A DNA stretch of 64,000 nt, from positions 62,001 to 126,000 of the IMG/VR virus record IMGVR_UViG_3300002835_000030. The stretch is one strand, 5' to 3'. Shown in pieces: positions 30,238 to 64,000 of this stretch. The notes under the pieces were generated by a model. It worked only from the letters and a program-made list of their open reading frames with translations, did not search any database and was not told the origin of the DNA. This DNA is from a virus. Numbering within the stretch: the stretch's first letter is position 1; each line of letters begins with the position of its first letter. The translations under genes and the position numbers were made by a program.

Positions 30238-32733
30238 ATGTCGAAAAATGAGAGTTTAAATTTAGGTTATTTAGGATATAGTTTTCAAGTAAAATTAGTA
30301 AAACAATTAGTAGAGGATCAAAAGTTTTCGGAAAGTATTATTTCTATTATTGACCCAAATTATTTCGACAACGAGTATATGAGACTCGTTGTTGCATATA
30401 TAAAGGATTATTATGAAAAATATGAAACTATTCCGTCTTATGAAACTATCTTTAATATAGTAAAGAGTGAAGTTAGACGAGAAATTGCTAAAGAATCTTC
30501 CATTGAACTTATTAAAGAGGTTAGAGAATCTGAAAATAGAGACTGTTTACACACACAAGATATTGCCATTAAGTTCTGCAAACAACAAGAACTTAAGAAG
30601 GCTACCCAAAAAATCCAAAAAATTCTAGACGGAGGTGATTTTGATAGATATGATGAATGTGAAGAATTAGTTAAACAGGCGATATCGGTAGGAACAGAAA
30701 AAGACGAAGGTGTAGATATCTTCCATGCAATTGAGGACGTTTTAGCGGACGATTTTAGAAATCCTATACCGACAGGATTAGTGGGAATTGACAACCTTAT
30801 GGGTGGTGGTTTATCTAAAGGTGAGTTAGGTGTTATACTAGCCGCCTTTGGTGTTGGAAAATCACAACCACTTCACTCAAAAGTTTTAACACCTAATGGA
30901 TGGACAACTATGGGTGATATCAAAGAAGGTGATTTAGTCATTAGTAGAGATGGAAAACCTACAAAGGTGTTAGGCGTATATCCTCAAGGTATTAGACCAA
31001 CATATAAAGTAAAATTTAATGATGGTACTGAAACTTTATGTGATGAAGAACATTTGTGGTCAGTAAACACTATTAACCAAAGAAACAGAAGAACAAGGAA
31101 AGATGGTAAAATAATTAATTTAGAACCAGATAACTCATATAGAACTATGAAAACCATTGAAATGGTTGACAATGTTAAAGTTTGGGGTAACAGAAGATTA
31201 AAATATAGAATCCCTAGAGTAGAACCTATACAGTTTGAGAAAAAGAATTTATTGATTGATCCTTATGTTTTAGGTGTTATATTAGGTGATGGTTGTATTA
31301 CTGAACATAATCACCCACATTTTGTAACTAAAGATGAGGAAATAATTAATGAGGTTAAAAGTTTTTATGATAAAGTATCTATCAAAGAACAAAATAGGGA
31401 TATCGAAAAAGAGGTTGATGGTGAATTAGTTTTAGTTAAACGATCAATTACTAAAGTTTCATTTTTAGGTATAAAAGATGATCTTAAAGTATTGGGGTTA
31501 TATGGTTGTAATTCTGAAACTAAGTTTATTCCGGAAGATTACATTTATTCTAATGTTGAAGATAGAGTTAAAATATTACAGGGGTTAGTTGATACAGACG
31601 GTTCAATAGATGAACATAGAATAGAGATAACAACTGTATCTAAAACGATGGCTTCACAAATTAGAGAAATTGTTTTATCTTTAGGTGGTACTGCGAGTAT
31701 TAATCAAAGGGAAACGTTTTATAAGAAAGGTGGTGTAAGAGTCGAATGTAAATTAGCGTATAGAGTTAATTTTAGTTTTCCGTCTAATATTGGATTCAAT
31801 CCTTGTAGATTAAATAGAAAATTGTCTAAATATAATGGTAGAACAAAATATTCAGATAATAAGTTTATTTCGTCTATTGAGTATTATGGAGAAGAAGAGT
31901 CACAATGTATTATGGTAGACAACCCTGAACATTTATATGTTACAGATGATTATATTGTTACTCACAATACTACATTAATCACTAGAATGGCGAACACTGC
32001 GTATTTAGAGGGTCAAAACGTAGTACAAATTTTCTTTGAAGATAATGTTAAAGTTATCCAAAGAAAACACTTAACATGTTTTACTGGAATAGAACTAAGT
32101 GAGTTGGGGGATAGAAGAGAAGAAGTAAAAGAACTCTTACCTAGATTTCAAAATTTAAAAGGTAACCTTATACTTAAGAAAATGTCTAGTGATGGTACGA
32201 CTATCCCACATATTAAACAATATCTACGTAAAATAATTTCTAGTGGTATTAAACCAGACATTGTATTTATTGATTACATTGATTGTATACAACCTACTAA
32301 ACATTTCAAAGACGAATATAGTGGTGAAGGAAATGTAATGAGACAATTTGAAACTATGTTATCAGAATTAGACATTGCGGGTTGGACTGCGGTACAAGGT
32401 AACAGAAGTGCAATTGGTGCAGACTTAGTAGAGGCGAATATGATGGGTGGGTCAATCAAGAAAGGACAAATCGGACACTTCATTTTATCAGTTGCCAAAA
32501 CATTGGATCAAAAAGAAGAGGGTCGGGCGACATTAGCCATTTTAAAATCTAGATTTGGTAGAGACGGAGTTGTTTTTGACGACATAGTATTTGACAATGG
32601 TACATTAATTATTGATACTAGTGCAAGTACAGATGTTTCACTATTACAACATGGAAAAGGACAAAAAAAGAAAGAGTCTGATTTCATTAGCGAAACGATA
32701 GCAAAGAAGAGAGGTATCGTAAATAATAATTAA
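30238..32733 (+). CDS. DnaB-type replicative helicase (gp41-like) interrupted by an intein
   Basis: The 831-residue precursor consists of an N-extein of 209 residues, an intein of 368 residues, and a C-extein of 254 residues; the spliced helicase is 463 residues, near the size of T4 gp41 (475). The N-extein has the N-terminal helical domain and linker, 'IPTGLVGIDNLMGGGLSKGE' and the start of Walker A (AAFGVGKS). The C-extein resumes with TTLITRMAN, then QIFFEDN, a Walker B strand (DIVFIDYIDCI), 'GWTAVQGNRSAI' and a final basic-acidic tail. DnaB-type helicases unwind DNA 5'-3' at the fork. Interruption within the P-loop means the enzyme is inactive until protein splicing occurs. It is followed by the nucleotide reductase genes. 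Confidence 0.88.
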   Translation: MSKNESLNLGYLGYSFQVKLVKQLVEDQKFSESIISIIDPNYFDNEYMRLVVAYIKDYYEKYETIPSYETIFNIVKSEVRREIAKESSIELIKEVRESENRDCLHTQDIAIKFCKQQELKKATQKIQKILDGGDFDRYDECEELVKQAISVGTEKDEGVDIFHAIEDVLADDFRNPIPTGLVGIDNLMGGGLSKGELGVILAAFGVGKSQPLHSKVLTPNGWTTMGDIKEGDLVISRDGKPTKVLGVYPQGIRPTYKVKFNDGTETLCDEEHLWSVNTINQRNRRTRKDGKIINLEPDNSYRTMKTIEMVDNVKVWGNRRLKYRIPRVEPIQFEKKNLLIDPYVLGVILGDGCITEHNHPHFVTKDEEIINEVKSFYDKVSIKEQNRDIEKEVDGELVLVKRSITKVSFLGIKDDLKVLGLYGCNSETKFIPEDYIYSNVEDRVKILQGLVDTDGSIDEHRIEITTVSKTMASQIREIVLSLGGTASINQRETFYKKGGVRVECKLAYRVNFSFPSNIGFNPCRLNRKLSKYNGRTKYSDNKFISSIEYYGEEESQCIMVDNPEHLYVTDDYIVTHNTTLITRMANTAYLEGQNVVQIFFEDNVKVIQRKHLTCFTGIELSELGDRREEVKELLPRFQNLKGNLILKKMSSDGTTIPHIKQYLRKIISSGIKPDIVFIDYIDCIQPTKHFKDEYSGEGNVMRQFETMLSELDIAGWTAVQGNRSAIGADLVEANMMGGSIKKGQIGHFILSVAKTLDQKEEGRATLAILKSRFGRDGVVFDDIVFDNGTLIIDTSASTDVSLLQHGKGQKKKESDFISETIAKKRGIVNNN
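30865..31968 (+). other. Class 3 intein with LAGLIDADG endonuclease in DnaB
   Basis: The intein runs from Gln1 (after GVGKS) to His367-Asn368, with Thr as first C-extein residue. Gln1 cannot act as the usual N-terminal Cys/Ser nucleophile. Instead the three residues of class 3 inteins (W-C-T) are present: Trp65 in CDEEHLW (block B), Cys348 in SQCIMVDNPEH (block F), and Thr366 in VTHN (block G). Two LAGLIDADG motifs, LGVILGDGC (about 135-143) and LQGLVDTDG (about 238-246), indicate an active homing endonuclease domain. The insertion point is the P-loop of DnaB, a known hot spot for inteins; mycobacteriophage Bethlehem DnaB is the type example of class 3 as I recall. Splicing chemistry is inferred from motifs. 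Confidence 0.8.
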
Positions 32734-36802: not shown

Positions 36803-38446
36803 TTATCTTCTATACCAAACATATTTCTCTGTTCCACAATCAAAAATTTTAAAATAACCATTTAATTTCATATTATCGGATTCAGAAAAACTATCATTAA
36901 TCAAAAGGTCCATATCACTTAACTTATGTTTTTGGTATTTATATCTAGTTTCTCTTTTTTTATTTATAACATAATAATAATTTGGCTCACTTATTTTTTC
37001 TAATTTAAACCCTAAAGTTTTATATATCCCCCCTTTCGACCATCTTTTATCGGAATAACTTATTACTTTATTAGGTTTATACGTTTTTAAAAAATAATTA
37101 AAAATTTTTGACGCCCCACCTATTACAGAAGTATTTAATTTATTTGAAAATCTTAATATTTCATATTCCCCATCAACGGATTTATATTTTAATATATTTC
37201 TGGTTTTCCCTAAAGTCATTAATGAAACTAACTCATTATTATAATATAATCCAATACGAATAGATGAATTAACGTACCCTTGTATATGATTTTTAATCAT
37301 AAACTCTTTTGCGTCCGAACTAGATATTTCTTTAATTATACATTTTCTACCATATATTTTATTTTCAGTTAACCCTATAATATTAGTTAATCTGGATTTA
37401 ACTATTTCTTTTTTATCATTCCATTCGTCCTCAAAAATATGGATTAAACGGCAACCATTTTCTTCACATAGTTTTGTTTTATTAATGTGATAATTTTTAT
37501 CTTTAAATTGTTCAGAGTGCCAATACAAACCATTATATTCTATCCCTAAATTATGTTTGGGTAATAAAATATCAATCTCTAAACCATTTAATATGGTTCT
37601 ATCATTTTCAACCGATTCTACATTTAATGAATTAATAAATTTAAAAATTTCTTTTTCTTGTATAGATATATTATTACTGCAAAATTTACAACCATATCCA
37701 TTTATATGGTATTGTGGTGTAACATTAATATCACCATGTTCAGTACAATTTATTATTAGTGGAGTAATATTATTTATATATATAGATTTGTCATAATTAA
37801 AATAATCACCATGTATTTTTTTTGATTTAATAATAAAAGAATTAGTATCGAAAATGGAATCAGTACATAATCTACACCCTTGATTTTTAGAAAGATGATT
37901 ATTTGGCGATTGTTCAAATTCACCATGTTCTTTACATTTTAAAATAACATTTTCTCTACTACTTTTATATGTAACCTTTGAATAGTCGTATTTATCACCA
38001 TATATTTTTTTTGATTTTTCTATAAATAATTTAGTATCCATCTTAGATGTACCACCACAATATTTACAACCTTTACCTTTTAGATGGTTATATGGTATTT
38101 GTTCGAATTCACCATGAATAGGACATATTATAGTTATAGGTGTTTTATTATTTTTATATTTTACTTTATCATAAATATATTTATCGTTATGTATAAGTTT
38201 ACACTCTTCTATAAAAGTTTTTAAATCTTTTTTTTGTAACTCTGTTTGTTTTTCTATATTACATTTAGGACAACCTTGTTTTCTATTTATTAAATGTATT
38301 GGTTTTTTAAAAAATTTACCATGTCTTTCACATATAATTTCTACCGGTGTATTATTTGTGGTGTATATTGAATTAGAAAAATCGTATTTATTCCCATGTA
38401 TTTTTTTTGATTGTTCTAAAAATTCTTTTTGTGTTTTTTTTTTCAT
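36803..38446 (-). CDS. Homing endonuclease-like protein with four zinc-ribbon repeats
   Basis: This 547-residue protein shares its C-terminal half with the endonucleases at 890 and 4080: [50 protein letters not shown]. The nuclease core is near residue 290-345. Its N-terminal half is different: four repeats of about 60 residues, each with 'K.I.G.KYDYSK..Y....', a 'C..HGEF...P..H' strand and a CxxC pair (CPKC, CKYC, CRLC, CKFC). These are DUF723-type zinc modules probably used for DNA recognition. It is inserted between gp25 and gp6-like genes on the opposite strand. Core residues look intact. Confidence 0.8.
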
Positions 38447-38541
38447 TATTCCTATGATAGTTTACTTACAATTATATATAATAAATAGGATAAAAACAAA
38501 ATTTTTAAATAATAAAAATAAAAATATTTTTTTTATTATTG

Positions 38542-38559
38542 ATATTTATTAATAAATAT
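38542..38559. promoter_or_regulatory. Palindromic ATATTTATTAATAAATAT element
   Basis: This is an 18-bp perfect palindrome lying between the divergent endonuclease gene and the gp6-like gene. It carries the recurrent element on both strands, so it could serve both. It ends 12 nt before the gp6-like start at 38572. Confidence 0.45.
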
Positions 38560-38571
38560 ATAATATATTAT

Positions 38572-40401
38572 ATGGCAAAAAAAATTGATTATAATAGTAG
38601 GAATTTCTCAGATGTAAGACAACAACTTGTGGAGTTCATTAAAAAATATTATCCAGAAACTTTTTCAGATTTTAACGATGCATCAGTAGGTATGATGTTA
38701 TTAGAATTAAACGCGGCGGTAGGTGATATGTTAAGTTTCCATACCGATAGAATGTTTAATGAAACCCAAATTAACTACGCACAAGAAAGATCATCATTAT
38801 TAGAATTGGCGAGAACATTTGGGTTAAACGTTCCAGGTAAAAGACCTAGTATAACTATTGTAGATTGGACAGTTAATAATATACCAGTAAAGGGTGATAC
38901 TTTTGATGTAAGTTACTCCCCTAAAATATTAAAAGGTTCGCAAGCATCTGGTTCAGGTAAAATATTTGAGTTATTAGAGGATTGTGACTTCTCATCGCCA
39001 TTCGCAACAGGTGGTATACCTAATAGACTTATCATACCTAATATTGACGGTAACGGTATAATTCAAAATTATTCACTTACTAAAAGGGAAATAATGTTAA
39101 ATGGATTTACTAAAATTTATAAAAAGACTTTAGGGGCTTCAGATTATAAACCATTTTTAGAAGTCATTTTACCTGAAGATAATGTTTTGTCTATAGAAAA
39201 TATCATAACTAAAGAGGGTACAAATTTAATTACATCACCCACAGAAGAAGAATTTAGTAATTTCAACCTAAATTGGTATGAGGTTCCTGCATTGGCACAA
39301 GGTGAAATTTATACAGTTGATGAAAATACGGTTTCAGACAATGAAGGTATAGTTGTAGGTAAATGGAAAAACGCACCTCAAAGATTTATTAAAGAATATA
39401 CCGATAATGGTTTCTGTAAAATAACTTTTGGTGCGGGAGATGAAGATATTTCAGAATTAAATGAATTTGTTGGATGTAGAGGTCAAATAGATAGGATTGG
39501 TAATATAATTAATAATCTTTCTTTAGGCGAGATACCACAACCGAGTAATACGTTGTATGTAAGATATAGAGTAGGTGGAGGTGAGGACACTAATATTGGT
39601 CCAAATACCATTTCTGGGTTAGGTGTTATTAGTTCTGTTGTTAATGGTGATGATGAGAATATAAATAGGGTTATTAGAAATAGTATTAGTGTAAATAATC
39701 CTATACCTGCGTTAGGGGGTAAAGAAGAGCCCTCATTAGAAGAAATAAGAAATTTAGTAAAATACAATTTTTCTGCGCAAGATAGATGTGTAACGATAAA
39801 AGATTATCAGAGTAGAATACCTTTAATGCCTGGTAGATTTGGTGTACCATTTAGAACAGGTGTTTGGGAAGAAAGAAATAAAATTAATGTTTCTATTTTA
39901 GCATTAGACGCAAATGGAAAACTTACAACACAATCAACATCCGCGCTGAAACAAAATATTGCAGAATATTTGGCAGATTATAGAATGATTAATGACTATG
40001 TAACCATCAAAAATGGTAAAGTATTCAACATAGGATTTGAAATTGATGTTTTTGCGGATAAGTCAGTCCCTAAAGGAGATATTATTAGTGGTGTGATTAA
40101 TAGCGTAAAAAATTATTTTGATATTAATAAATGGGATATGGGTGATAACATCTATATATCTCAGTTAGTTGAAAACATTAATAATGTTGCGGGAGTATTA
40201 AATGTTACTGATTTAAGAGTATTTAACAAAGTTAACGAAAATGGTAAATATTCATTAAATGAAGTCGCTCAACCATACATTGATGAAGAAACAAGACAAA
40301 TAGATCTTTTGGGTAGATATACATTATTCGGTGAACCGAATGGTATGTTTGAAATAAAGTACCCTAATAAAGACATCAAAGTAACAATTTCTACATCTTA
40401 A
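38572..40401 (+). CDS. gp6: Baseplate wedge protein gp6-like (baseplate J)
   Basis: This 609-residue protein starts at ATG 38572 (MAKKIDYNSRNFSDVRQQ); the upstream in-frame ATG at 38539 would put the candidate promoter inside the gene, so I reject it. Family features include DFNDASVGMMLLELNAAVGDML, FHTDRMFNETQINYAQERSS as the N-terminal helix pair, a beta domain, RYRVGGGEDTNIGPNTI, the 'ISVNNPIPALGGKEEPSLEEIR' type of baseplate J signature, and a C-terminal domain with YLADYRMINDYV. Gp6-like proteins dimerise to form the inner ring of the baseplate and expand on contraction. Size is close to T4 gp6 (660). Confidence 0.82.
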   Translation: MAKKIDYNSRNFSDVRQQLVEFIKKYYPETFSDFNDASVGMMLLELNAAVGDMLSFHTDRMFNETQINYAQERSSLLELARTFGLNVPGKRPSITIVDWTVNNIPVKGDTFDVSYSPKILKGSQASGSGKIFELLEDCDFSSPFATGGIPNRLIIPNIDGNGIIQNYSLTKREIMLNGFTKIYKKTLGASDYKPFLEVILPEDNVLSIENIITKEGTNLITSPTEEEFSNFNLNWYEVPALAQGEIYTVDENTVSDNEGIVVGKWKNAPQRFIKEYTDNGFCKITFGAGDEDISELNEFVGCRGQIDRIGNIINNLSLGEIPQPSNTLYVRYRVGGGEDTNIGPNTISGLGVISSVVNGDDENINRVIRNSISVNNPIPALGGKEEPSLEEIRNLVKYNFSAQDRCVTIKDYQSRIPLMPGRFGVPFRTGVWEERNKINVSILALDANGKLTTQSTSALKQNIAEYLADYRMINDYVTIKNGKVFNIGFEIDVFADKSVPKGDIISGVINSVKNYFDINKWDMGDNIYISQLVENINNVAGVLNVTDLRVFNKVNENGKYSLNEVAQPYIDEETRQIDLLGRYTLFGEPNGMFEIKYPNKDIKVTISTS

Positions 40402-50043: not shown

Positions 50044-53000
50044 ATGGCGAAAAATAATAGAATAAAAATTGCGGGATACGCAAAAAGAATATTTTTCAAT
50101 GACAACATTGAGTATAGAAACTTTAGTCCTGATTTAGTAGGTTTCCAACTTACTAGTAATGGGGGTACTACACTATTTACTAATGGTAATTTTTCTATAT
50201 CAATTAATTTAGATCCAAAACCGAATGTTTTATTTACGCAAAGTACTAAATCTAAATTCTACACATTAGATGATATTATCACATCTGGTAATACACAATT
50301 AGACATTCAAAACAACGTTAAGGCAAAACTTAACATTGATATTACGAATCCTTTGAGTTATATATGGTATGGTTCTACTAGTGAGATGATTAGGGCATCT
50401 CTATTAGACATTCAAGAGAATTGGCCGGCGGCGATATATGTAGATAATAAAGTTGGTAGTGTCACAGGTAATAATATCACAGACTATGTTTATGATATTT
50501 CTAGTGACGAGTCTACTTTTAAAGTTAATAGTAATTTCTTTATTAATCCATATGTTATAAAATATACTGAAGATTCTAAATATGTTGAAACAAATAGTGC
50601 GGAAAACCCTTTAAGGAATTTTACATTAAAATATGGTTCATATGTTATAGAACACAATGGAATTGTAAAAAATATTAAAAGTATAACACCAGCAACACAA
50701 AAAACTAATTCGGAGTTAACTTTGGTTGTTGATGGTAATCCATTTCCTGAACTTACAGGTATCTATATACCACAATATAGTTTTTTGAGTAACAATATAG
50801 ATGCGTCTATCCCTTATCTCATCAAACCTAATGAGTCTGAAATTGAGAAGTTCTTTAGTGGGTTAGATGATTTTCAGAGAACGATATTAAATAGAGAGAT
50901 TAATCCAATATATAGGGCAGAGATTATTAGTAGTAATTATACCGATGATGGCGTATTATTAACTAGTAAAAAAGTATACGATTTTCCCGTAATGGATGAT
51001 GGGTATAACCTTAATTTCTTCGATACTTTTTATATTTCATATCTTAGTAAATTAACAAAGTTGGGTGAGGGGTTAGATCAGACAAATACTGATATAATAT
51101 TTAGAAAATATACTACCGAAGCAATAAATAGTTTCGATACTATGCCTAAAACAGATGGTGATGATTTAACTTTAAATGGTGAAAAGGCGACTAAATTGAT
51201 TAGAATATACGGTGTTGAGTTTGATTATCTTAAAAAGTATATTAATGGTATTAAATTTGCACATGTTGTAACATATAATAAAAGAAATAATCTACCCGAT
51301 GTTTTAGTGAAAGACCTTGCATTTATGTTAGGGTTAGAACCGATTAATTTTATTAGCGATTCGTCATTTTCTAAACTATACTTACCAAGTAATGGCGGTG
51401 GAAAATTTAGTGGTACATCGACAAATTTAACTGAAGAACAAATTGATAACGAATTATATAGGAGATTGATACTTAATATTGCTTGGTTATGGAAAAGTAA
51501 GGGTAGTAGAAAGGCGGTTGAATTTTTATTTAGGTTTATTGGGGCACCTGAGTCATTAGTTAATTTTAATGAATATATTGTAGTTGTAGATAAACCATTA
51601 GACATAGAAGAAATAAAAAGGTTATTATATATTTATACGGGTAAAGTTGATTTATCTAATATACCTTACGATGATAATGGTTTCCCATTACCACCTGTTA
51701 ATGGTGAATTAGTAATTAGTAATTTTATTGATACTGAAACGGGCGAAGTCGTAGAGAATGGTATTACGGAGATGTATTTCCAAAAAGCGGGTGGTTGGTA
51801 TAGAGAAACTTATGGTAGTAATGTGTTAACAGTTTTAAATGGTAATAACCCACATGTTGGACCATATGACGGTGGTAGTGAATACTTACAATATTTTAGT
51901 AGATGTTATATACCTAATTTCGATAATGAACCAACTGTAGTAATAACCGCAGATACCATAAGACAAAACTACTTTGTAAATTATAATTATGGTATTTTTA
52001 ATGGTATACCTTCAGGAACAACATTTTATACTAACCAACTAACATATAACGACAAAACAGGTAAATATCAACCGATAGACAATTGTTTAAATGTTAATTA
52101 TTCTATTATTGACACACCTTTACAAAACGATGGTAAAACAACCTTACAACAGGCATTTGTGCAGGCGGAGGCAGAGTATAACACATTTTTAGAGTTAATC
52201 CAAAAAGATAGTTATTTAGTTTATTCACCTGAGTGGCAAGTTATTAAAAACAATTATGAATTATCATTAAAAAATTGTTTAAATGAAATTTCTACCGAAG
52301 ATTGTGATACTAATAAAACATTAGAAATATGTTTAAATGAAGTAGAAGTAGAAACTACTCAATATAGTTGTGATAATCTTTTATTGAAAGAATGTTCTCC
52401 ATTTTTTTATTATGAAGATGGAAACGGAAATAAAGTTAGTTTTGATAAATTCCCACAATGTTGTGAAAATAATAATGGTAATTTTGTATCGTATGTTAAT
52501 GAATATGGTAGACTTACAGAATATTGTACAACAAAAGCACCATGTATTGGTAAACCTTTAGAACCATTAGAAAATGGCATAGTGCCATTTTTAATGACTG
52601 AGAATGTAGTACCTGATAATATTTTTCAGTTATATGATAGATGTTACCAATACATTTACGAACAAACAATACCATTATCAGAATTTGAGGTTGTAATTGG
52701 TTATACACCACAAGAAATTATTACCTCATTTTTATCGGGAGATTATCAGATAAGTATGTCTTTTGAAATATTATTTAGAGAAGTTTCATGTGATATCACT
52801 TCAGTGGTGAGTAGTCCTGAGTGTTGTGCCTATTATGGGATGAACTATACCATTGTTATCGATGGTGAAAAAGAATATATAGTATGTTTGAAAAATAATT
52901 TGAATGGTTTAAGTGATGAACAGGTTCCCCAATTTATTTTACAGAATAAATTAAATTTGGGTACTTACACAATGCCGAATATTGATGAACAAATTAAAAC

Positions 53001-56000
53001 ATCATATTATGATTTACAAAATCCACTAGGTAGTGTGTATAATTACTATTCTACAGATATCTTTGGCGATTGTTTTGGTGAATCAGTTATAATAAAAGAA
53101 GTTGTAAATACAAATAACAATATTGTTGCGATACCTAATTCTATTTTAGATGACCCCTCACTTATGAATCCTTCTAATTGGGAAGTTCATGTAATTGATG
53201 AATATGGTAGAGTTAGTTTTGAACCTATCATATACGATAATAATTTTATCATAGATTGGGATAGTACAGAAGAAGTTAGTGATTTATATCAGTTAATTGC
53301 AGAGTTTTACGGGTATCAGTTTGGGTATTTTACCATTGATCAAAATAGTGGTTTATTAATACCATATACTGGTGAAAATATTTATTCTAATAATCCTAAC
53401 ACTATATTTAGTGCGGCGGTTGACCCTAATAGGGTTGGGTGTAATGATTTTAATAACGTTTCAGTTGTATTCGGAAGTGAGAATTGGCAAGGTTTTAAAT
53501 TACCCGAATTAGAAGATTGTAGTTGTACAATAGATTTCTCTTTTGACTATATGTTAAAATATGAAGCTAGTAATTTGATTGAATGTGCAAATAAAATATC
53601 ATGTAATCCCGCAATTATATATGATAACACAATTAGTAATATTAATTGTTTAAATTTTGTCGCATTTACAAATAGTGTAGATGAATCACAAACATTGCAA
53701 GGTAATTTTAACGATAGAGAAGATGTAACTGAAGAATATATTATTTGGCAAAATACGAATATATTAGAGCCTAACATAGAATGTTGTAGTGCTTTGGGCG
53801 GAAATGTCGTTTCAGTAACACAGTGGGCATCCGTAAACCAAATATGGGTTTCACAGATAAATACTACTTATGGAGAATTATTTAATAATCCCACACAAGA
53901 CTTATTGGCGACATTAAACTTCAATACTGCGGAAATATTACAATTCATTGAAAAATATAAAACGACTAAGGAGAATGTAGAGAATCAAATAACAGGATGT
54001 TTCAACTTATCTCTAACATTCCCAAATTGTGACATAGAATACAATAATTATATAACAACACAAAATGTTTGTAATTTAGAGGTACCGTTAGAATGTGGTA
54101 TATGGTCTAAATTATTGTCAGATTATAAAGCATTAGAAACTGCGATAACAAATGTTATTGAAAAATATAATTTATTGTGTAGTGAACCGATAAATGGGGC
54201 TATTTCACAAATAGACGTTATTAAAACCTTTAATAGATTAACCACTCAACAGACAAACGAATTAGAAAAATTAAAAATTAGTGAAGATAAACTTAGAAAA
54301 CAAATTCTATTAATACAAAATGATGTTAGTGTAAAAAGTGGGGATAATACTATCATTGAAAAGGCAATTACTAATGTGGATAACCCATTAGATTGTTCAG
54401 TATATGAAAATAAAATAAGTGAAATCAGAAACTTTGACTATAATTCGTATTGTAATAGTTTAATTTATGGTGATATTAACTCTAATGATGGTAGCAAACA
54501 AAATGAATTTACTGTTTGTATATCTACAAAAACATTAGAAAATCAGAATGAAGAATTATTATATTCTCAATTATTAGAAGATTGTGTCTATAAAAATAGA
54601 TTAAATGAAGAACTGATTAATGTAAAATTTGATAATAACCAAACTCTAATTAGTGAAATTGAAAAACAACTGTTAGATATCAATAATAACATCAATAGAT
54701 TAACTACAGATTATAATAATACTATTAGTTACGATGAATCCAAACAGGCATCAATAATAGAAAATAATGATACGCAAAATACAATTATTAAAACTGCGGA
54801 ATTATTAAACAGTAACACTGAAAATATTACTGACAATTCTGGTAATTTAGTTTTAACTGATAGTCAAAAAATAGAACTAAACATTATCTACAATAAAAAT
54901 ATATCACAAATAAGTGATTTATCTATAGAACTTGAAGAAACAAATGTTCTATTAAATCAAAACTTAATAGGGCAAAATACGATAATATCGGGTACTAAGG
55001 TTGAACAAGATAATATAGGTAATATAGGTAATATATTATTAGAACCACTATCTGATGGGACAATAAATAGTGGAGATGGTATATGTGCATTAATTAATCC
55101 ATCATTATTTACCTCTTCACTATCGGGTGCATTATTATATAATGGTTTAAATATTCCATTAGAATGTTGTAACTCCACCGCAATCCCATTTGATGGTACA
55201 TTTACTTTTATTGGGCGAGAATGTTTTTTTAATAATAATCAGGTAGAAATAAAAAATTGTTGTGATGAAATCGATACATTAGTGATCCAACAATCATTAG
55301 AAGAACTCCAATATGAGATACCTATTATAGAACAAAAAACTCAAGAATGTTATGACAAATGGTATGATACGTTGGTAGAAGATTATGAGGTTTACGTAGA
55401 AGAAAATAATAGTAATTTTAATTCGTATTTAAATAAATTAAAAGTTAATTTTAAATTATTTGTTAATAATACAAATGATGATACACAGACAAATATAGAC
55501 ACAGGTTTAACTTATTTACCATACACACAAAATGTCAACCCAATATGGGAATGGGATCCTACAAATGGGTATACTGGAGTTATTTTAGAAGGTACTGAAC
55601 AAGAGATTTCGGTTATTGAAGATAGTATATTTAATCAACTATCTAAACTAAATGTACCATATAACTCAGAGATGTTTGAACCTGAGTGGCAAACATTTAA
55701 TTTTACAATACCAGAGTGTGTATGTGACGATTTACGAAGATTATACCCTAATAAAGAATTCTTCTTCTCTATAGGTATAGAGAATTATGAGTGTTCACTA
55801 TGTTTATTGGTCGATAATATACAAGTTAATGTTGCGGATTGTCAAACAAATAGAATACTTTCAATAAACGATTGTATGATACCACAATTAAGTTGTGTTA
55901 TAGATAATAAAAAATCGTGGGTTTATTATGATGATGGTGTAGTTAAACAAACCATTTACCCTAATGGTGACTGTAACACGGGTTCCACATCTAATTATGA

Positions 56001-57960
56001 AATTGTTAAATTAGGTGAGCAACAAGAGAGACTGTGGTTAGATTTAGAATATAGATATACTAATTATCATATTAACCATTCTGATTTAATATTAAATGTT
56101 AAAAATGCAACATTCAGTATTGACCCTGCAAAGGCAATAGAATGTGATGTATTTAATTATTGGAAAAACATTGATTGTGATAATTGTACAAATAGTTGTA
56201 CATCTGCGAGTACAGTTATATTTAGTGGGCAAGTTTATAGTTCTACTACATTAGAAAATTATACTTTAGATTTATCGGCATCAACATCGGGATTAACATT
56301 TAGTTGTTCTACGTTTACAGATTTATTAGAAACTCAAGTATTGGAATTGAAAAATAGTTACTATACACTAACCTCAAATTATACTACATCACTAAATGCG
56401 ACTTATTATGAATTATTAAATTTAGGTTCTTCACTAAGTAAATTTAGTATACAAAAAAATAATTGTGGTACGGATACTATAGTATTAAATAATAATCAAG
56501 AAATTGATAATTTATTTGGGTTAATTACTGAAAATTATGATGGTACTATATCATTTTATGAATCTTATATTTACACAGGTACTACACCATACACTGGCGG
56601 TACTTTAGTTGAAGTTTTAAGTGGTATAACTGCACAAACATTCAACCAAACTCCATTTGTAAATTCTGGTTGTTGTAAAACAATTAACAATTTACTTAAT
56701 AGTGAAGGTGTGGTTGGTTTAGGTTTAGGTAAGGACTATCAATGGGACAGTAATATCAGTGCCTGTGTTTGGAAACCAATAAATGGTTGTTCTAATTGTA
56801 ATGGAGACTGTGAATATTGTGGTACATTAAACGAGTGTTCTAATGGTTTTTATACTGGTACACCTTATAATGTCTGTATTAACCCTATAGATTATTTAGA
56901 TGTACAACCATCAGAGATTAATATTAAATCAGTGTTTGATCAATTAGTACAAACTAATTTAATTGACGTTAAGAGTAGACAAACTATTAGTGATTATCCA
57001 TTATTAAGATTATTTTATGAATTATATCTAAACGCTAGTAATTGTGGTAAAGACTTATCGGGTAAATATACATACGATACTATGTTTGAGTTTATGGATA
57101 AGATTGGTGACTTTTGGTTAGACTTATTGGAACAAGTGGTACCTGCAACTACAATATGGGAAGGTTGTGATAATTCGGGTAAAATATATAGAAATACTAT
57201 TTTTGATAATAATAAATTTAATTATAAAAAATATACTTTAAATTTCATTGATGCGGACGATAATTGTCCATTATCTGCACAAACAGATTTTAGTATTGGT
57301 TCTGAAACTAAACATTCATTAGTAGAACAAAAACCTATATATCCGTCAAGTCCTGAGATAACACAAGTTAAGACAGACATTTTAAATAAAGAATTAGAGA
57401 TATCACTACTTAAGAAACAAATTTCATCAGAACAAAGTAAGTTATGTTCGATAAGACTACAAGATTTGGATACCCCTAATTTACAAGATTTAATAGATGT
57501 ACAACAAACCCAAATTGATTTACTTAATAGTGAGTTAGTTAATTTAGAACAAGAATTGATAGATTTAAATGCACAATTAGATGAAATTGAAAATGTGTAT
57601 CTACTACAACAACAAAATTATTATATGAATTTTATGAGTTGTAGTGGTATAACACAAAATTTAATAAACACACAAAATAGTTTATCTGGGTTTACACAAG
57701 GTACTACTACATATGAAACACAAAGAAACTTTATTGCAGGACTTAGAGATAAATACAATAAGTGTGTTAGGAAGGCGAACACATTAATAAGTGATTATAA
57801 TACAGTATTTATAACACAAATATATGACAGTAATGAATATGAAGGAAATGTAGAGATATTTGGTGATCCAGATTTTGACACACCTAACTTCATTAAAACA
57901 TTACCCCCAGAACAAGTATCTGGATGGTATTATAATCAAGAATTAATACATAACTGTTAA
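50044..57960 (+). CDS. Giant tail/baseplate protein with gpI-like domain and Cys-pair repeats
   Basis: At 2638 residues this is the largest gene in the window. The N-terminal 450 residues are beta-rich. Around residues 470-500 lies RLILNIAWLWKSKGSRKAV, then EFLFRFIGAPESL, matching the 'KG....l..l....G' helix pair of P2 gpI / T4 gp7-type wedge proteins; a gp7-like role is my inference. From residue about 800 to 2230 there are at least six adjacent-Cys modules (ECC or CC near 806, 927, 1247, 1708, 1739 and 2210) each followed about 10-25 residues later by a strand and, in most, another Cys. Coiled coils lie near 1390-1440, 1500-1640 and 2430-2530. It may form a long wedge-fibre structure. T4 gp7 is 1032 residues, so the Cys-rich part is an addition. 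Confidence 0.55.
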   Translation: MAKNNRIKIAGYAKRIFFNDNIEYRNFSPDLVGFQLTSNGGTTLFTNGNFSISINLDPKPNVLFTQSTKSKFYTLDDIITSGNTQLDIQNNVKAKLNIDITNPLSYIWYGSTSEMIRASLLDIQENWPAAIYVDNKVGSVTGNNITDYVYDISSDESTFKVNSNFFINPYVIKYTEDSKYVETNSAENPLRNFTLKYGSYVIEHNGIVKNIKSITPATQKTNSELTLVVDGNPFPELTGIYIPQYSFLSNNIDASIPYLIKPNESEIEKFFSGLDDFQRTILNREINPIYRAEIISSNYTDDGVLLTSKKVYDFPVMDDGYNLNFFDTFYISYLSKLTKLGEGLDQTNTDIIFRKYTTEAINSFDTMPKTDGDDLTLNGEKATKLIRIYGVEFDYLKKYINGIKFAHVVTYNKRNNLPDVLVKDLAFMLGLEPINFISDSSFSKLYLPSNGGGKFSGTSTNLTEEQIDNELYRRLILNIAWLWKSKGSRKAVEFLFRFIGAPESLVNFNEYIVVVDKPLDIEEIKRLLYIYTGKVDLSNIPYDDNGFPLPPVNGELVISNFIDTETGEVVENGITEMYFQKAGGWYRETYGSNVLTVLNGNNPHVGPYDGGSEYLQYFSRCYIPNFDNEPTVVITADTIRQNYFVNYNYGIFNGIPSGTTFYTNQLTYNDKTGKYQPIDNCLNVNYSIIDTPLQNDGKTTLQQAFVQAEAEYNTFLELIQKDSYLVYSPEWQVIKNNYELSLKNCLNEISTEDCDTNKTLEICLNEVEVETTQYSCDNLLLKECSPFFYYEDGNGNKVSFDKFPQCCENNNGNFVSYVNEYGRLTEYCTTKAPCIGKPLEPLENGIVPFLMTENVVPDNIFQLYDRCYQYIYEQTIPLSEFEVVIGYTPQEIITSFLSGDYQISMSFEILFREVSCDITSVVSSPECCAYYGMNYTIVIDGEKEYIVCLKNNLNGLSDEQVPQFILQNKLNLGTYTMPNIDEQIKTSYYDLQNPLGSVYNYYSTDIFGDCFGESVIIKEVVNTNNNIVAIPNSILDDPSLMNPSNWEVHVIDEYGRVSFEPIIYDNNFIIDWDSTEEVSDLYQLIAEFYGYQFGYFTIDQNSGLLIPYTGENIYSNNPNTIFSAAVDPNRVGCNDFNNVSVVFGSENWQGFKLPELEDCSCTIDFSFDYMLKYEASNLIECANKISCNPAIIYDNTISNINCLNFVAFTNSVDESQTLQGNFNDREDVTEEYIIWQNTNILEPNIECCSALGGNVVSVTQWASVNQIWVSQINTTYGELFNNPTQDLLATLNFNTAEILQFIEKYKTTKENVENQITGCFNLSLTFPNCDIEYNNYITTQNVCNLEVPLECGIWSKLLSDYKALETAITNVIEKYNLLCSEPINGAISQIDVIKTFNRLTTQQTNELEKLKISEDKLRKQILLIQNDVSVKSGDNTIIEKAITNVDNPLDCSVYENKISEIRNFDYNSYCNSLIYGDINSNDGSKQNEFTVCISTKTLENQNEELLYSQLLEDCVYKNRLNEELINVKFDNNQTLISEIEKQLLDINNNINRLTTDYNNTISYDESKQASIIENNDTQNTIIKTAELLNSNTENITDNSGNLVLTDSQKIELNIIYNKNISQISDLSIELEETNVLLNQNLIGQNTIISGTKVEQDNIGNIGNILLEPLSDGTINSGDGICALINPSLFTSSLSGALLYNGLNIPLECCNSTAIPFDGTFTFIGRECFFNNNQVEIKNCCDEIDTLVIQQSLEELQYEIPIIEQKTQECYDKWYDTLVEDYEVYVEENNSNFNSYLNKLKVNFKLFVNNTNDDTQTNIDTGLTYLPYTQNVNPIWEWDPTNGYTGVILEGTEQEISVIEDSIFNQLSKLNVPYNSEMFEPEWQTFNFTIPECVCDDLRRLYPNKEFFFSIGIENYECSLCLLVDNIQVNVADCQTNRILSINDCMIPQLSCVIDNKKSWVYYDDGVVKQTIYPNGDCNTGSTSNYEIVKLGEQQERLWLDLEYRYTNYHINHSDLILNVKNATFSIDPAKAIECDVFNYWKNIDCDNCTNSCTSASTVIFSGQVYSSTTLENYTLDLSASTSGLTFSCSTFTDLLETQVLELKNSYYTLTSNYTTSLNATYYELLNLGSSLSKFSIQKNNCGTDTIVLNNNQEIDNLFGLITENYDGTISFYESYIYTGTTPYTGGTLVEVLSGITAQTFNQTPFVNSGCCKTINNLLNSEGVVGLGLGKDYQWDSNISACVWKPINGCSNCNGDCEYCGTLNECSNGFYTGTPYNVCINPIDYLDVQPSEINIKSVFDQLVQTNLIDVKSRQTISDYPLLRLFYELYLNASNCGKDLSGKYTYDTMFEFMDKIGDFWLDLLEQVVPATTIWEGCDNSGKIYRNTIFDNNKFNYKKYTLNFIDADDNCPLSAQTDFSIGSETKHSLVEQKPIYPSSPEITQVKTDILNKELEISLLKKQISSEQSKLCSIRLQDLDTPNLQDLIDVQQTQIDLLNSELVNLEQELIDLNAQLDEIENVYLLQQQNYYMNFMSCSGITQNLINTQNSLSGFTQGTTTYETQRNFIAGLRDKYNKCVRKANTLISDYNTVFITQIYDSNEYEGNVEIFGDPDFDTPNFIKTLPPEQVSGWYYNQELIHNC

Positions 57961-58088: not shown

Positions 58089-60995
58089 ATGGCAGGAATT
58101 AGAGGTAAAATAGTAAATCCGATATCGATAGGTGGTGAAGTTATTACTGAAATTGAATCACCTATTAACTTAAATATAGGTACTGATATGAATTATCAGG
58201 CATCCTCTACGTCCACATTTTTAAAAACAGAAAAATCATTATTCCTACCTACAGATTTATCTAGGGTAGACGATATATTTTTATTGTCGAAACCTGATAA
58301 ATACGGACAAACCATATTTAGAAATAGATTAACAGAAAAAACAATACCATTAAATTTTTCTGGTAATGTAAGTGATATAAATTCCGAAATTGAAATTACT
58401 GAAAATAATGAAATATTATATATAGATAATGGTAAAAAATATCAATTATTGTCTAGTAGAAGTGAAAGTAATAACTACGGATGGGAACCTGTAAGTAATA
58501 GGGCAAAATATAACCATATAGAGCGATCAGACTTTGATAGTTTTGATTTTCCACAAATTACAATTAGAGGTGTTAGAAAAATACCTGCTACTACTGCAGA
58601 TACTTTATGTGGTCCGGTAACATATACTGGTGAAACATATGATAGGATGAATTATAATTGGTTCTTCGGGAAAAACGCGGCAATATCTTTTAACCCAATA
58701 CAAAGCGGTGGTACTCCAGTTATATTAAGTGGGGCGATGGAATCACAAGAAGGTGTTGCGTCGATATCTAATAAAGAAGGGCAACTATTATTCTATACAA
58801 ATGGTGAGACGGTATATACTAGTGGAAACACTGTTATGACTAATGGTACGGGACTATCTAGTTCGGGAACTTCAACACAGTCAGTTGTTATTGTCCCTAA
58901 ACCAGAGTCCGATAAGTATTATTTGTTTACAACAGATTACAACGGTAACCCTAATGGATTTGAATATTCTATAGTTAATATGGGATCACAAAACGTAGAT
59001 GGGGTAGTTGAAACAAAAAATATTAAATTAATCAATACACCATTAAGTGAAAAAGTTACTGCGTGTAGTAATACATCAGAAGATTCTTATTGGATTATAA
59101 CACATACAAGTGGTGATACATCATATTATACATATAAATTATCTTCTACGGGATTAAGTGGACCGATAATCACAAATATCGGTTCCACACACAATACTGC
59201 GAGAGGATATATGAAGACATCACCTGATTGCTCTAAATTAATATCTTTATTATATGATGAGGATATTATAGACATTTTTGATTTCGATTCCACAGGTGGT
59301 ACGTTAAGTAATTTTATATCATTAACAGGAATGACTTTTGATATTGGACCTTATGGGTTGGAGTTTTCTTCAGATTCTTCTAAGTTTTATGTTAGTGAAG
59401 GTGCGGGTGAAAAAGTATATCAGTTTGATTTAACTTACACCTCTTCTACTGAAATGATAGACAATGTAATTGAGGTAGGTAATATTAGTGGGGCGAGTTT
59501 TGGGGCGCTACAATTAGCGCCTGATGAGAGAATCTATCTTGCAGATTATAACAATACTAATTTACATATTATACATAGACCTAATGGTTTGGGTGTACAA
59601 TGTAATTTTGAAAGTAGTGGTATATCTTTAACTAATAGTACTATTACCGGTACGTCATCATATTGGGGGTTACCTAATATTATAACAGATAAATCTATTT
59701 CTTGTGATCGGTCAGTTTATATTATACCTAAAAGTAGAACAGGGTATTTATTTGACGTTTTAGTGAATAATGTTAATAATGTAGTTGAACCGAAGAAACT
59801 TTCATTGTTTGGTGAGGTTTATAGATACGAACAAAGTATTGGTGAATTTACTAAATCTGCATTATCTAATTTTGTTATAGATTATAATGATTTAACTGCC
59901 AATACAAGTAATAACATTTTTATACCTACATTAAATATAGGTGAGGGTGAATTTTTAATAAAATCTTATTGGACTTATAATGTGAATACGTTATTAGCGA
60001 AGAAACAAAAAGTCGTAAAAAATAGTATTAATACATATAAAAGAGGTGAATTATATGGTTTATATGTTCCCGAAACGGATTGGTATTTTATATCCTTATT
60101 TGAATCACAAAAACCACTATTTAATAGTTCTGTCGCACCTCAACCACAAAACATAGGTAATCTAGTAGTACAAAGTAGGTTTACTGAAAGTGGTACTACT
60201 GAGTACGTAGTAAATGGTTTATCTGACCCAATAGTCTCATATAATGGTTCTGTATTGGCTAAGAATATTGAATATAGTGCGGTAACCTCCGCAACTACAC
60301 CATATATTAAATTATTATTTAATCCATTACCTAATCAAGTTTTAACATACGCTTATATTAATAATGGTGGTAGTAACGATTTGTTGGCGGATTTATATAC
60401 GATATCTACAACAATAAAAAGTGGTGCAACTGGCACTCAATCATCTACTGATAGGGTATTTTATAACACCACAGAAAATAAATATGAGTTTTATTTAACT
60501 AGTAGCCCTAATAGTGATGTTATTTTATCTTTAAATGGTACTATATTAAGTAAAGATGTTGAATATTATTTATCTGCTTCTAATAGTAGAAGAGTTATAT
60601 TTGATGATAATTTAGTTGTTGGGGATATAATAGAGGCATTTTATGTTCCTACCGCGGCGATAAATGGGTTAGTACCTAATAATACACCTACAATTAGTTG
60701 GTATATCAACGAAGCCCCAGCGCAATCATATGGTAAGTTCACAATAGAGGTGACTGACCCTAGTGACGAATTTTTTGAAACCGTAGTGTATAGTTTTGTC
60801 GTTGATTATATTATAGGACAAAAAACATATAGTGATACCATAACATTGACAAATGCCGTTGCAGGTGATAAATTTATATATAGGGTTAAAAATGAAAAAT
60901 TTTATACCCCCATTAATGGTGAAACTATTTATAGTGTGAACTATAGTGACGTAAATCGTATAGAAATACAATTTAATAGTGGGCAATCATATTAA
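58089..60995 (+). CDS. Tail fibre/adhesin-like protein with Bacteroidota T9SS-type beta-propeller
   Basis: This 968-residue protein has three parts. Residues 1-185 are phage-type (GIRGKIVNPISIGGEVI, then FLPTDLSRVDDIFLLSKPD). Residues about 188-530 strongly resemble the beta-propeller of Bacteroidota gliding-motility-associated, T9SS type B surface proteins: WFFGKNAAISFN, EGVASISNKEGQLLFYTNG, TQSVVIVPKPESDKYYLFT, NGFEYSIVNM, VTACSNTSEDSYWIITH, ARGYMKTSPDCSKL, YGLEFSSDSSKFYVSE. Residues 560-968 contain repeated beta modules (VVQSRFTESGTTEYVVNG, then YEFYLTSSPNSDVILSLNG). No T9SS C-terminal sorting domain is present. The likely role is receptor binding at the tail tip, with a domain acquired from hosts. 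Confidence 0.65.
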   Translation: MAGIRGKIVNPISIGGEVITEIESPINLNIGTDMNYQASSTSTFLKTEKSLFLPTDLSRVDDIFLLSKPDKYGQTIFRNRLTEKTIPLNFSGNVSDINSEIEITENNEILYIDNGKKYQLLSSRSESNNYGWEPVSNRAKYNHIERSDFDSFDFPQITIRGVRKIPATTADTLCGPVTYTGETYDRMNYNWFFGKNAAISFNPIQSGGTPVILSGAMESQEGVASISNKEGQLLFYTNGETVYTSGNTVMTNGTGLSSSGTSTQSVVIVPKPESDKYYLFTTDYNGNPNGFEYSIVNMGSQNVDGVVETKNIKLINTPLSEKVTACSNTSEDSYWIITHTSGDTSYYTYKLSSTGLSGPIITNIGSTHNTARGYMKTSPDCSKLISLLYDEDIIDIFDFDSTGGTLSNFISLTGMTFDIGPYGLEFSSDSSKFYVSEGAGEKVYQFDLTYTSSTEMIDNVIEVGNISGASFGALQLAPDERIYLADYNNTNLHIIHRPNGLGVQCNFESSGISLTNSTITGTSSYWGLPNIITDKSISCDRSVYIIPKSRTGYLFDVLVNNVNNVVEPKKLSLFGEVYRYEQSIGEFTKSALSNFVIDYNDLTANTSNNIFIPTLNIGEGEFLIKSYWTYNVNTLLAKKQKVVKNSINTYKRGELYGLYVPETDWYFISLFESQKPLFNSSVAPQPQNIGNLVVQSRFTESGTTEYVVNGLSDPIVSYNGSVLAKNIEYSAVTSATTPYIKLLFNPLPNQVLTYAYINNGGSNDLLADLYTISTTIKSGATGTQSSTDRVFYNTTENKYEFYLTSSPNSDVILSLNGTILSKDVEYYLSASNSRRVIFDDNLVVGDIIEAFYVPTAAINGLVPNNTPTISWYINEAPAQSYGKFTIEVTDPSDEFFETVVYSFVVDYIIGQKTYSDTITLTNAVAGDKFIYRVKNEKFYTPINGETIYSVNYSDVNRIEIQFNSGQSY

Positions 60996-61037: not shown

Positions 61038-63278
61038 ATGAGTTACATTAATAAACAAAATACTACCTTAGTAAGAGTTAAATTAACTGATATAGGTAGA
61101 GAACAATTGGCAAAAGGACAGTTAACCTTTACTAATTATATGATTGGCGATTCAGAAGTCGATTATAATTATGTTAAAGGGTGGAGTGAATTCGTACCCA
61201 ATGAGGGTGCAACAACAGGACAATTTTGGTTTCCTGAAGCGAATGGTAATATAACTAAAAATATTTTTTCAAAAGTTTTAAGACCAAAAGACGATAACCC
61301 CTTCTTTTCTTCATTTCTTTTAAACCAAAGTAATCAATTTATATTTCCTCTAAACCAACAAAGTAATATACAATTAATAAAGGGTATTGTTACCAATGAA
61401 GCGGACGATAGAGGGTTCTTTTCCGGATCAACAGTAGACACAGGTTTAGTACCTCAAATCGGTACAGATTTCATTAAAGAAACTGGCACCATAGACTTAG
61501 TTAATTTTGATGGTTCTATAGATGTTACTACCTTCACACAAGGTATCTTATCGGGTATTACATTGTCTAATACAGAAGTTAATGATTATATTGTGTTTAG
61601 GTTTACAAACCCGACATTAGGGGATCAAACTGGGTCGACAATGACTGCCGCGACAATAAATACCACATATAATATTACATCTATTAGTGGTTCTACAATT
61701 AAAGTAGATAGGGTATTACCATCATTAAATGCGTATTCGGGGACTCTAATTACGTATTATACTTTACCTGGTGGTGATAACCCCACAGATGATTACTACG
61801 GAACTAATTCATTGGCGGCGTATTGGAACACAGGCACTTTATCATTTGATAGTAGTTGTGATATATGTAATGAAAATATTCCAGTGTGGAATATGAACAA
61901 TGTGTGGACTGAAAACCCCGCAGGACTTTATAAAGATTCACCGGTTAATTATCACGAACATAGTTTATTCGGTTCGGAACAATTCACAGGTTCTAAACAA
62001 TATTTAGGTTATAATGAAAATTTAGTTTGTAACGCAAATGGTGCAACAACGATATGTGGTACAGATCAACCTATAAGTTACATTGACCCCTATAAGAAAT
62101 CAATATCTATTTTACACTATTCAAACAGTTGTATATCTAATTTCTATGGAGAACAATTCTATATCGATCAGGAAACTGGTAAACTTTTAAATTTAGATAT
62201 CCCTGTTATGTGGCACAGAAGAAATGATGTAGGAACTGCGAGTGGTACTACATTAGGCATGAGATTCACTTCAGATACGATTAAGAAAACATTGTCATCT
62301 AATAATGATGTTGAGTATTACGATTTAATCGAATATAGTGGTATGTCGGTAACACCTACAATGCCATTAGTAGTGGGTAAAGTATTCCCACAATTAAAAA
62401 TTGTAGTTATAGATAATGAGGAGTTGGTTGCTGCAATGTCCTACAAATCGAATAGAAACTACACTCTACCCGATTTATCTGCAGACTTAATTGCGTCAGT
62501 TAATGGCAATTGTACTGGCGTACTAAAGGCAGGTGAAACATTGTATATGACTTATTGGTTAGAGAATGTTGGGACAGGATCTACCGGTACGACAACAGTA
62601 ACCACACCTACACTACCGTGCCAAAGATATACGGTTATTGATAACAAAACGAGTTCTGATAAAGATGTTCAGTTTAGAATTAGTAACATAGATCATTTAC
62701 CATATATGAGAAAAAGAGAAGATTCTAACTACGATGGTTATGGTTTCTTCGCAGATTCATTTAAGGTATTAGCGCAAGTAATAAATAGAAATACACAAAA
62801 CAGACCTTCACCATCAGGATGGAAGGTTGTTGACTTTACATCTACAAATATTACGGGAAATAGTGGTGAAACAATTAACCCATTATTACTACAGAATCAA
62901 AATCCAAACACTACAGGATTTATATTAACAGGTTCTTTATATACTGGCGGCACACAATTTAATTTAGGTGAGGAATTAGATATGTCAACTGCACAATATT
63001 ATGGTAAGATGACTTTTGGGGATGAAAGATTATTCTACGGTAATTTAAGAACACATATTGCGGCGACAATATATAAATCACTATTTAATATTAATATAGA
63101 TGGTGCAACAATTGCATCTAGTAGTAATACTACATATGACTTTGGTTTAGATAGATATGTTAGTGAGATAGGTGTGTTAGATAATAACAATAATTTGGTA
63201 TTGGTTGGTAAGTTATCTAGACCTATTAGATTGGCAGATTCAACTACCGCCTCAATAGAACTAACAATAGACTTTTAA
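61038..63278 (+). CDS. Tail fibre/tail-tip-like structural protein
   Basis: This 746-residue protein opens with a module (VRVKLTDIGREQLAKGQ, then FTNYMIGDSEVDYNY) that also opens the next gene. The rest is beta-rich, with Thr/Ser/Gly-rich segments (TLSNTEVNDYIVFRF, YTLPDLSADLIASVNG), a Cys pair (SSCDICNENIPVWNM, about 273-287), and a C-terminal domain with YYGKMTFGDERLFYGNLR and a final strand (TASIELTIDF). No enzyme motif was seen. Such repeated N-terminal modules are consistent with fibre subunits that share an attachment site. Confidence 0.5.
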   Translation: MSYINKQNTTLVRVKLTDIGREQLAKGQLTFTNYMIGDSEVDYNYVKGWSEFVPNEGATTGQFWFPEANGNITKNIFSKVLRPKDDNPFFSSFLLNQSNQFIFPLNQQSNIQLIKGIVTNEADDRGFFSGSTVDTGLVPQIGTDFIKETGTIDLVNFDGSIDVTTFTQGILSGITLSNTEVNDYIVFRFTNPTLGDQTGSTMTAATINTTYNITSISGSTIKVDRVLPSLNAYSGTLITYYTLPGGDNPTDDYYGTNSLAAYWNTGTLSFDSSCDICNENIPVWNMNNVWTENPAGLYKDSPVNYHEHSLFGSEQFTGSKQYLGYNENLVCNANGATTICGTDQPISYIDPYKKSISILHYSNSCISNFYGEQFYIDQETGKLLNLDIPVMWHRRNDVGTASGTTLGMRFTSDTIKKTLSSNNDVEYYDLIEYSGMSVTPTMPLVVGKVFPQLKIVVIDNEELVAAMSYKSNRNYTLPDLSADLIASVNGNCTGVLKAGETLYMTYWLENVGTGSTGTTTVTTPTLPCQRYTVIDNKTSSDKDVQFRISNIDHLPYMRKREDSNYDGYGFFADSFKVLAQVINRNTQNRPSPSGWKVVDFTSTNITGNSGETINPLLLQNQNPNTTGFILTGSLYTGGTQFNLGEELDMSTAQYYGKMTFGDERLFYGNLRTHIAATIYKSLFNINIDGATIASSSNTTYDFGLDRYVSEIGVLDNNNNLVLVGKLSRPIRLADSTTASIELTIDF

Positions 63279-63288
63279 ATAATAAAAA

Positions 63289-64000
63289 ATGGGATTCATA
63301 GATAGTGCAACTACAGTAACAATCAGAGCGAGATTAACTAATCTCGGAAGAGAGAAGATATTGACAAACAATAATACTATCTTCACTCATTTTATTTTGG
63401 GTGACTCTGACGCAAATTATAACACAATTGAAAAACTAACATCGGGAAAGATACCTACAGATAGTGGTAATTTAGGTGTGAATAGTACAACTAATGATAA
63501 TATATTTGAGAATGTAGGTATTGGTAGTAAATTATTTGTGACTGTAGCTCCTACCACTAAAAAATTAGTAGAGAAAAATTCTAATAAAATTAATATGGAA
63601 ATCACAAAAGTGGGTGAAAACACTGTCAGTGGTAGTTCTCTTACTTATGTACAATTAGATAGGGATAATAATAGTAGTGTAAACACTAACTATTTTAAAA
63701 GTTTATCTTTGCCGATAAAAAAGGCAGATGTTAATGTATTCACAGGTACGACATCACAAAACGGAGGATGGTCAGACACACCATTTAGTGGTTTAGGTGT
63801 AAGTAATGTACTTATGGGTGTAATCGACAATGATAAATATGGTGAGATTATAGATGGTAAATCAGTTAAATTAGAGATACCTGTTTATACTGGATACACA
63901 ACAGGTGGTACACCTACTGGTTTAACCACATATACATTATATGCAACATACCCTAAAACTACAATCCCTAAAACAGATTTAGATTCAGATTATATTGATA
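63289..64000 (+). CDS. Partial paralogous tail protein, truncated at window end
   Basis: The start ATG at 63289 lies 10 nt after the preceding stop. The 237 visible residues open with IRARLTNLGREKILTNN, then FTHFILGDSDANYN, clearly related to the first 45 residues of the previous protein. The body is beta-rich and Thr/Ser-rich (GTTSQNGGWSDTPFSGLG, VKLEIPVYTGYTTGGTP). The reading frame is open to the end of the window, so length and C-terminal domains are unknown. Confidence 0.6.
   Translation, partial: MGFIDSATTVTIRARLTNLGREKILTNNNTIFTHFILGDSDANYNTIEKLTSGKIPTDSGNLGVNSTTNDNIFENVGIGSKLFVTVAPTTKKLVEKNSNKINMEITKVGENTVSGSSLTYVQLDRDNNSSVNTNYFKSLSLPIKKADVNVFTGTTSQNGGWSDTPFSGLGVSNVLMGVIDNDKYGEIIDGKSVKLEIPVYTGYTTGGTPTGLTTYTLYATYPKTTIPKTDLDSDYID

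Follow-up and report, generated by a model that had tools for sequence, protein, structure and literature searches.

A conserved beta-propeller of the Bacteroidota surface-protein family in a tail-region gene of large T4-like phages

The 968-amino-acid (aa) protein encoded at positions 58089 to 60995 of the window (64,000 nucleotides of an IMG/VR virus record that is 128,648 bases long) contains a central beta-propeller. This domain belongs to the family of propellers found in Bacteroidota surface proteins rather than to the generic propellers of phages or eukaryotes. It probably derives from a host, from which a lineage of uncultured phages acquired it long ago and has kept it. The gene had been singled out in a first-pass annotation as encoding a tail protein with such a propeller. 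The open reading frame (ORF), its length and the quoted sequence segments all match the ORF list and the translation exactly, and the propeller bounds given there (residues 188 to 530) were right, the domain covering residues 188 to 533. The protein and its parts are as follows.

58089..60995, + strand: 968-aa tail-region protein with a central propeller (ORF call, translation, orthologues)
58089..58649, + strand: N-terminal part, residues 1 to 187 (alignment; found in every complete relative)
58650..59687, + strand: beta-propeller of the Bacteroidota surface type, residues 188 to 533 (alignments, genome matches, structure, fold search)
59688..60992, + strand: C-terminal all-beta part, residues 534 to 968 (alignment, self comparison, model)

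When searched as a single sequence, the 968-aa protein had no match in Pfam, PHROGs, the Protein Data Bank (PDB), or 50,697 phage records, so that these resources would leave it unnamed. Self comparison revealed a motif of the type SD-x-I-[VL]-S-x-NG-x-[VI]-L-[AS]-K-x-[IV]-EY that occurs twice in the C-terminal part (residues 712 to 729 and 809 to 826). The structure prediction for the full-length protein was poor (pLDDT 55), including the N terminus, and its fold matches were therefore left unused; residues 690 to 850 of this model had pLDDT values of mostly 74 to 90.

The family assignment of the propeller is based on several lines of evidence. (i) In pairwise alignments, the domain shares 33 to 42% identity over its full length (~340 residues) with propellers of Bacteroidota surface proteins, in which it is N-terminal. 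(ii) A profile built from the phage relatives matches Bacteroidota proteins across all 345 residues (tblastn E values down to 6e-69), and the profile search of the phage propellers against Bacteroidota proteins reached an E value of 5.6e-89, which is far beyond chance and bears out the proposed relationship. A total of 53 positions are conserved in both phage and host propellers. (iii) AlphaFold2, run on the propeller with phage and host alignment rows, returned a confident propeller (pLDDT 89.2, pTM 0.90). (iv) The best Foldseek matches in the PDB and BFVD were propellers, including the YVTN propeller 1l0q from an archaeal surface layer (E value of 2e-9 by profile) and 6-phosphogluconolactonases of Bacteroides. 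These best structural matches share only ~10 to 16% identity with the phage domain, compared with the 33 to 42% for Bacteroidota, and the closer kinship to generic phage or eukaryotic propellers that the first-pass annotation had named as counterevidence was thus not found.

A profile of the phage propellers, run against one-per-species genomes, yielded 26 loci. Two of these are phage relatives themselves, namely, a contig of a Prochlorococcus single-cell genome and a Flavobacteriales metagenome-assembled genome (MAG) fragment. The remaining loci are from Bacteroidota, except for one MAG labelled Alphaproteobacteria and one labelled Chlorobiota. The propeller gene of the former (L059) differs very little from its counterpart in a Bacteroidales MAG (L057), and its contig is therefore likely misbinned. 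The domain is present in 68 of the 396 genomes from the phylum of Marinifilum, with several paralogues per genome, and in none of the 291 other genomes from the phylum of the Prochlorococcus genome, where the phage contig is the sole match. Among the host proteins scanned (NCBIfam, Pfam), every one that extends to its own C terminus ends in TIGR04131/CHU_C, the sorting domain of type IX type B, with the exception of L058, where an OmpA domain takes this position; PKD and Ig_7 domains lie between the propeller and the C terminus in some of them. The examples from Marinifilum and Labilibaculum are type IX secretion system (T9SS) type B surface proteins of about 1590 aa with an N-terminal propeller. 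The earlier statement that the host propellers are exported by the type IX system is supported for most host copies by this sorting domain. No Pfam or NCBIfam model matched the host propeller itself above the cut-off, and we found no report on the ligand of this family. The phage protein and these T9SS type B proteins are homologous over the full length of the propeller; however, the propeller is internal in the phage protein, which lacks PKD/Ig modules and the CHU_C/TIGR04131 sorting domain (Pfam returned no match to it or to PKD) and shows no apparent signal peptide, no hydrophobic N-terminal stretch being visible on inspection by eye. The 968-aa protein accordingly carries the host domain without belonging to the host protein family.

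Scans of viral contigs retrieved 9 and then 28 loci with propellers that were 57 to 100% identical, and all of these relatives are uncultured contigs. As had been suggested, we sought the domain in related phage tail genes. The N-terminal part, propeller, and C-terminal part were found together in all 52 complete gene copies of the loci checked, the one exception being a fragment at a contig end, and searches with N- and C-terminal profiles detected no propeller-less relatives. The relatives have one propeller per gene, with no tandem repeat. In most of them, the propeller is better conserved than both flanks, to about the same degree as the primase and the 746-aa neighbor, and its dN/dS values of mostly 0.03 to 0.19 indicate strong purifying selection. 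In a tree of 71 rows, which was unrooted and contained no outgroup, the phage propellers formed one clade (100/100) with a stem of 0.93 changes per site. The tree had been expected to name the host family; since its host backbone is without resolution, the tree places the phage clade in no single family and none is named. The single clade, high conservation, and low dN/dS values point to a single ancient acquisition followed by continuous use and argue against a fast-evolving specificity tip. The wide host distribution, the several paralogues per genome, and the single phage clade suggest that the transfer went from host to phage.

The gene set of the phage, as classified by PHROG, is T4-like and includes the tail sheath (E value of 9e-59), baseplate wedge, UvsX, SSB, DnaB helicase, RNR, and DNA polymerase; judged by these genes, this is a large T4-like, contractile-tailed phage. 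The propeller gene is located ~18 kb downstream of the wedge gene, and the following features define its neighborhood.

38539..40401, + strand: baseplate wedge subunit-like protein (PHROG 219 / 10646; E value of 1.9e-20), which marks the baseplate/tail cluster
50044..57960, + strand: 2638-aa protein directly upstream, more variable than the propeller; order kept in relatives that reach it
61038..63278, + strand: 746-aa protein directly downstream; first 80 aa in common with the next gene (32%, E value of 1e-6)
63289..63999, + strand: start of a 431-aa gene that continues past the window end (L124:6290-7585; neighbor comparison)

The block formed by the 2638-aa protein, the propeller gene, the 746-aa protein, the 431-aa protein, a RuvC-like protein, and a primase is kept in all relatives compared, which span freshwater and marine phages according to habitats read from IMG sample numbers. 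The large flanking proteins had no family match and no match in the 50,697 phage records. The ~80-aa N-terminal domain common to the 746-aa and 431-aa proteins is probably a virion attachment module. We infer the tail assignment of the propeller gene solely from its position near the baseplate wedge gene and in this block; the wedge gene upstream and the synteny among relatives agree with the earlier placement of the gene in the tail region. Elsewhere in the window, a DnaB-like replicative helicase (30238-32733, + strand) carries a LAGLIDADG homing-endonuclease insert at about residues 199 to 583, which is likely an intein. Three large homing/HNH endonuclease ORFs of the related families PHROG 3339/559 are also present (890-2497, − strand; 4080-5660, + strand; 36803-38446, − strand), two of the three being on the minority strand.

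The first-pass annotation regarded the propeller as strong evidence for the host phylum, and Bacteroidota as the host phylum is backed independently by the absent Shine-Dalgarno signal and by the promoters of the relatives. Shine-Dalgarno-like motifs precede 3 of the 101 genes (3.3 expected), and Bacteroidota are known to lack this signal (PMC6847099); the cyanophage P-RSM4, used as a control, had such motifs before 11 of 36 genes (5.2 expected) and 0 promoter motifs. The Bacteroidota -33/-7 promoter TTTG-N17-23-TAnnTTTG was found 10 times in intergenic DNA of the freshwater relatives, where 0.64 copies were expected and none of 50 shuffles gave more than 2. A second set of relatives had 4 copies (0.34 expected; at most 2 in shuffles). 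These two counts are not independent since the promoter loci are orthologous, and the labels freshwater and marine for these sets are a reading of IMG sample numbers and no tool result. The intergenic DNA scanned in the phage's own contig showed no enrichment of the motif (1 versus 0.68 expected); outside this set, the sequence upstream of the primase gene contains one exact copy, TTTG-N19-TATATTTG (L124, about 8305-8335). A search for tRNA genes as a host clue found none. One phage relative, L039 (IMGVR_UViG_2716884754_000002; QCKH01000004.1, 83,794 bp), corresponds to an entire contig from the Prochlorococcus single-cell genome AG-409-L21. A cyanobacterial host based on this match is unlikely, since the contig has Bacteroidota-type promoters and, unlike the cyanophage control, no Shine-Dalgarno excess; because of these promoters, L039 probably stems from a Bacteroidota phage that was co-sorted with the cell, rather than from a cyanophage.

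As to function, we favor, with moderate confidence and at about an even chance, a peripheral tail or baseplate protein of a T4-like Bacteroidota phage in which the host-derived propeller serves as a conserved, exposed adhesion platform. An ancestor of the lineage would have taken the surface propeller from a type IX-exported host protein; the phage protein would be devoid of the host signal peptide, PKD/Ig modules, and sorting domain, and the propeller would now be placed between two phage-specific parts, one N-terminal and presumably used for attachment to the virion, the other C-terminal and all-beta. The propeller may contact a surface component common to many hosts, such as a glycan or a type IX-exported adhesin, during early adsorption, with strain specificity located elsewhere. 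In this scheme, the homology, the fold, the set and order of the domains, their conservation, the synteny, the single clade, and the expression signals of Bacteroidota type are observed, and we infer the virion location, the direction of transfer, and the binding function.

Besides the homology, the invariant domain set, the conserved gene block, the single clade, and the host-phylum signals described above, the following observations favor this proposal. (i) Phage-resistance mutations in Flavobacterium are often found in gliding/T9SS genes, the products of which place adhesins on the cell surface (PMC9233685; PMC13288928). (ii) The BACON tail proteins of crAssphage, for which host binding has been proposed (PMC6949934), are also tail-region proteins with a Bacteroidota-associated extracellular domain, although BACON is Ig-like, forms tandem repeats, and occurs in a different phage lineage, whereas the propeller is present in a single copy. 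(iii) The receptor-binding protein Gp45 of Staphylococcus phage phi11 has a five-bladed propeller platform that was proposed to bind a surface glycan (PMC4901313). Gp45 is a baseplate protein with a beta-propeller, and the 968-aa protein is placed by its position in the tail-region gene cluster; host and phage type differ, and a host-derived origin is not known for Gp45. Homology of the Gp45 type was not detected, as there is no PDB sequence match for the 968-aa protein and the best fold matches are generic propellers. (iv) In the relative L030, the last propeller blade contains an insertion of ~250 residues (residues about 500 to 755 of a 1218-aa protein), which suggests an exposed surface. 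The insertion has a weak PA14 match (E value of 9e-4, below Pfam's cut-off) and is possibly glycan-binding. The strong purifying selection is unusual for an adhesion domain and counts against an adhesion platform.

The same conservation is the strength of the main rival, which we consider possible and clearly less probable, namely, that the captured propeller is a structural building block of the baseplate that contacts phage proteins, such as the 2638- or 746-aa neighbor, and not the host. That the domain is present in every relative, is the most conserved part in most of them at about the level of the primase and the 746-aa neighbor, and has such low dN/dS values would be expected of this role, whereas the tolerance of L030 for its insertion, with the exposed surface that it suggests, and the action of the host propeller family outside the cell argue against it. 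The use preferred in the first-pass annotation, a variable receptor-binding tip that decides host range, is weakened by the data and appears improbable: beta-propellers do occur in phage receptor-binding proteins such as Gp45, but a hypervariable part is absent, the identity of 57 to 100% across marine and freshwater relatives is mostly above that of the flanks, and dN/dS is low. A conserved adhesion platform or baseplate element therefore fits better than a fast-evolving specificity tip.

A host-propeller profile also identified a second viral group, composed of contigs with short ORFs of about 370 to 475 aa (L155-L168, L184) that have an apparent signal peptide, the propeller, often PKD, and no type IX sorting domain. 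These ORFs appear to encode a phage-coded, secreted, host-like surface protein. The group forms its own clade (100/100), which adjoins host rows with weak support (81/88). A single clade of the tail and secreted groups was not rejected (AU p 0.447), and independent capture is thus not claimed. Further viral contigs hold divergent propeller copies, some in giant ORFs. In L201 to L203, ORFs of more than 3000 aa (cut by the locus end) have a divergent propeller first and a second copy within; in L201, the giant ORF neighbors genes for a major head protein and a tail fibre. Proteins of a related kind are the T9SS cargo proteins of cryophages, for which secretion through the host machinery is presumed (PMC7468147) and in which Bacteroidota phages likewise code parts of the type IX surface world of their hosts; these proteins keep their sorting domains and are highly variable, whereas here the sorting tag is absent and the domain is conserved in a tail-region gene. 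Mimicry, in which the virion would enter cell-cell or coat contacts of the host by means of a propeller that imitates host surface proteins, is very improbable: fold and family are those of the host surface protein and the secreted form exists in the second group, but a self-contact role of host propellers was not established in anything we found and the tail gene has no signal peptide on inspection. Extending the adhesion platform, it is conceivable, though rather doubtful, that Bacteroidota phages captured the propeller more than once, as a conserved platform in the tail and as a secreted signal peptide/propeller/PKD protein made during infection. If true, one host surface module would both attach the phage and dress the infected cell.

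Host surface domains in phage tails are already known from BACON in crAssphage. The propeller represents a clear case in which such a domain has become fixed in a gene of the tail region and escapes the standard family libraries, and the gene provides a marker of the host phylum for this uncultured lineage of large T4-like phages. The family of host propellers occurs widely in the genomes sampled, yet no family model was found for it, and the soluble, conserved, phage-borne propeller could be a practical probe for the ligand of this host family.
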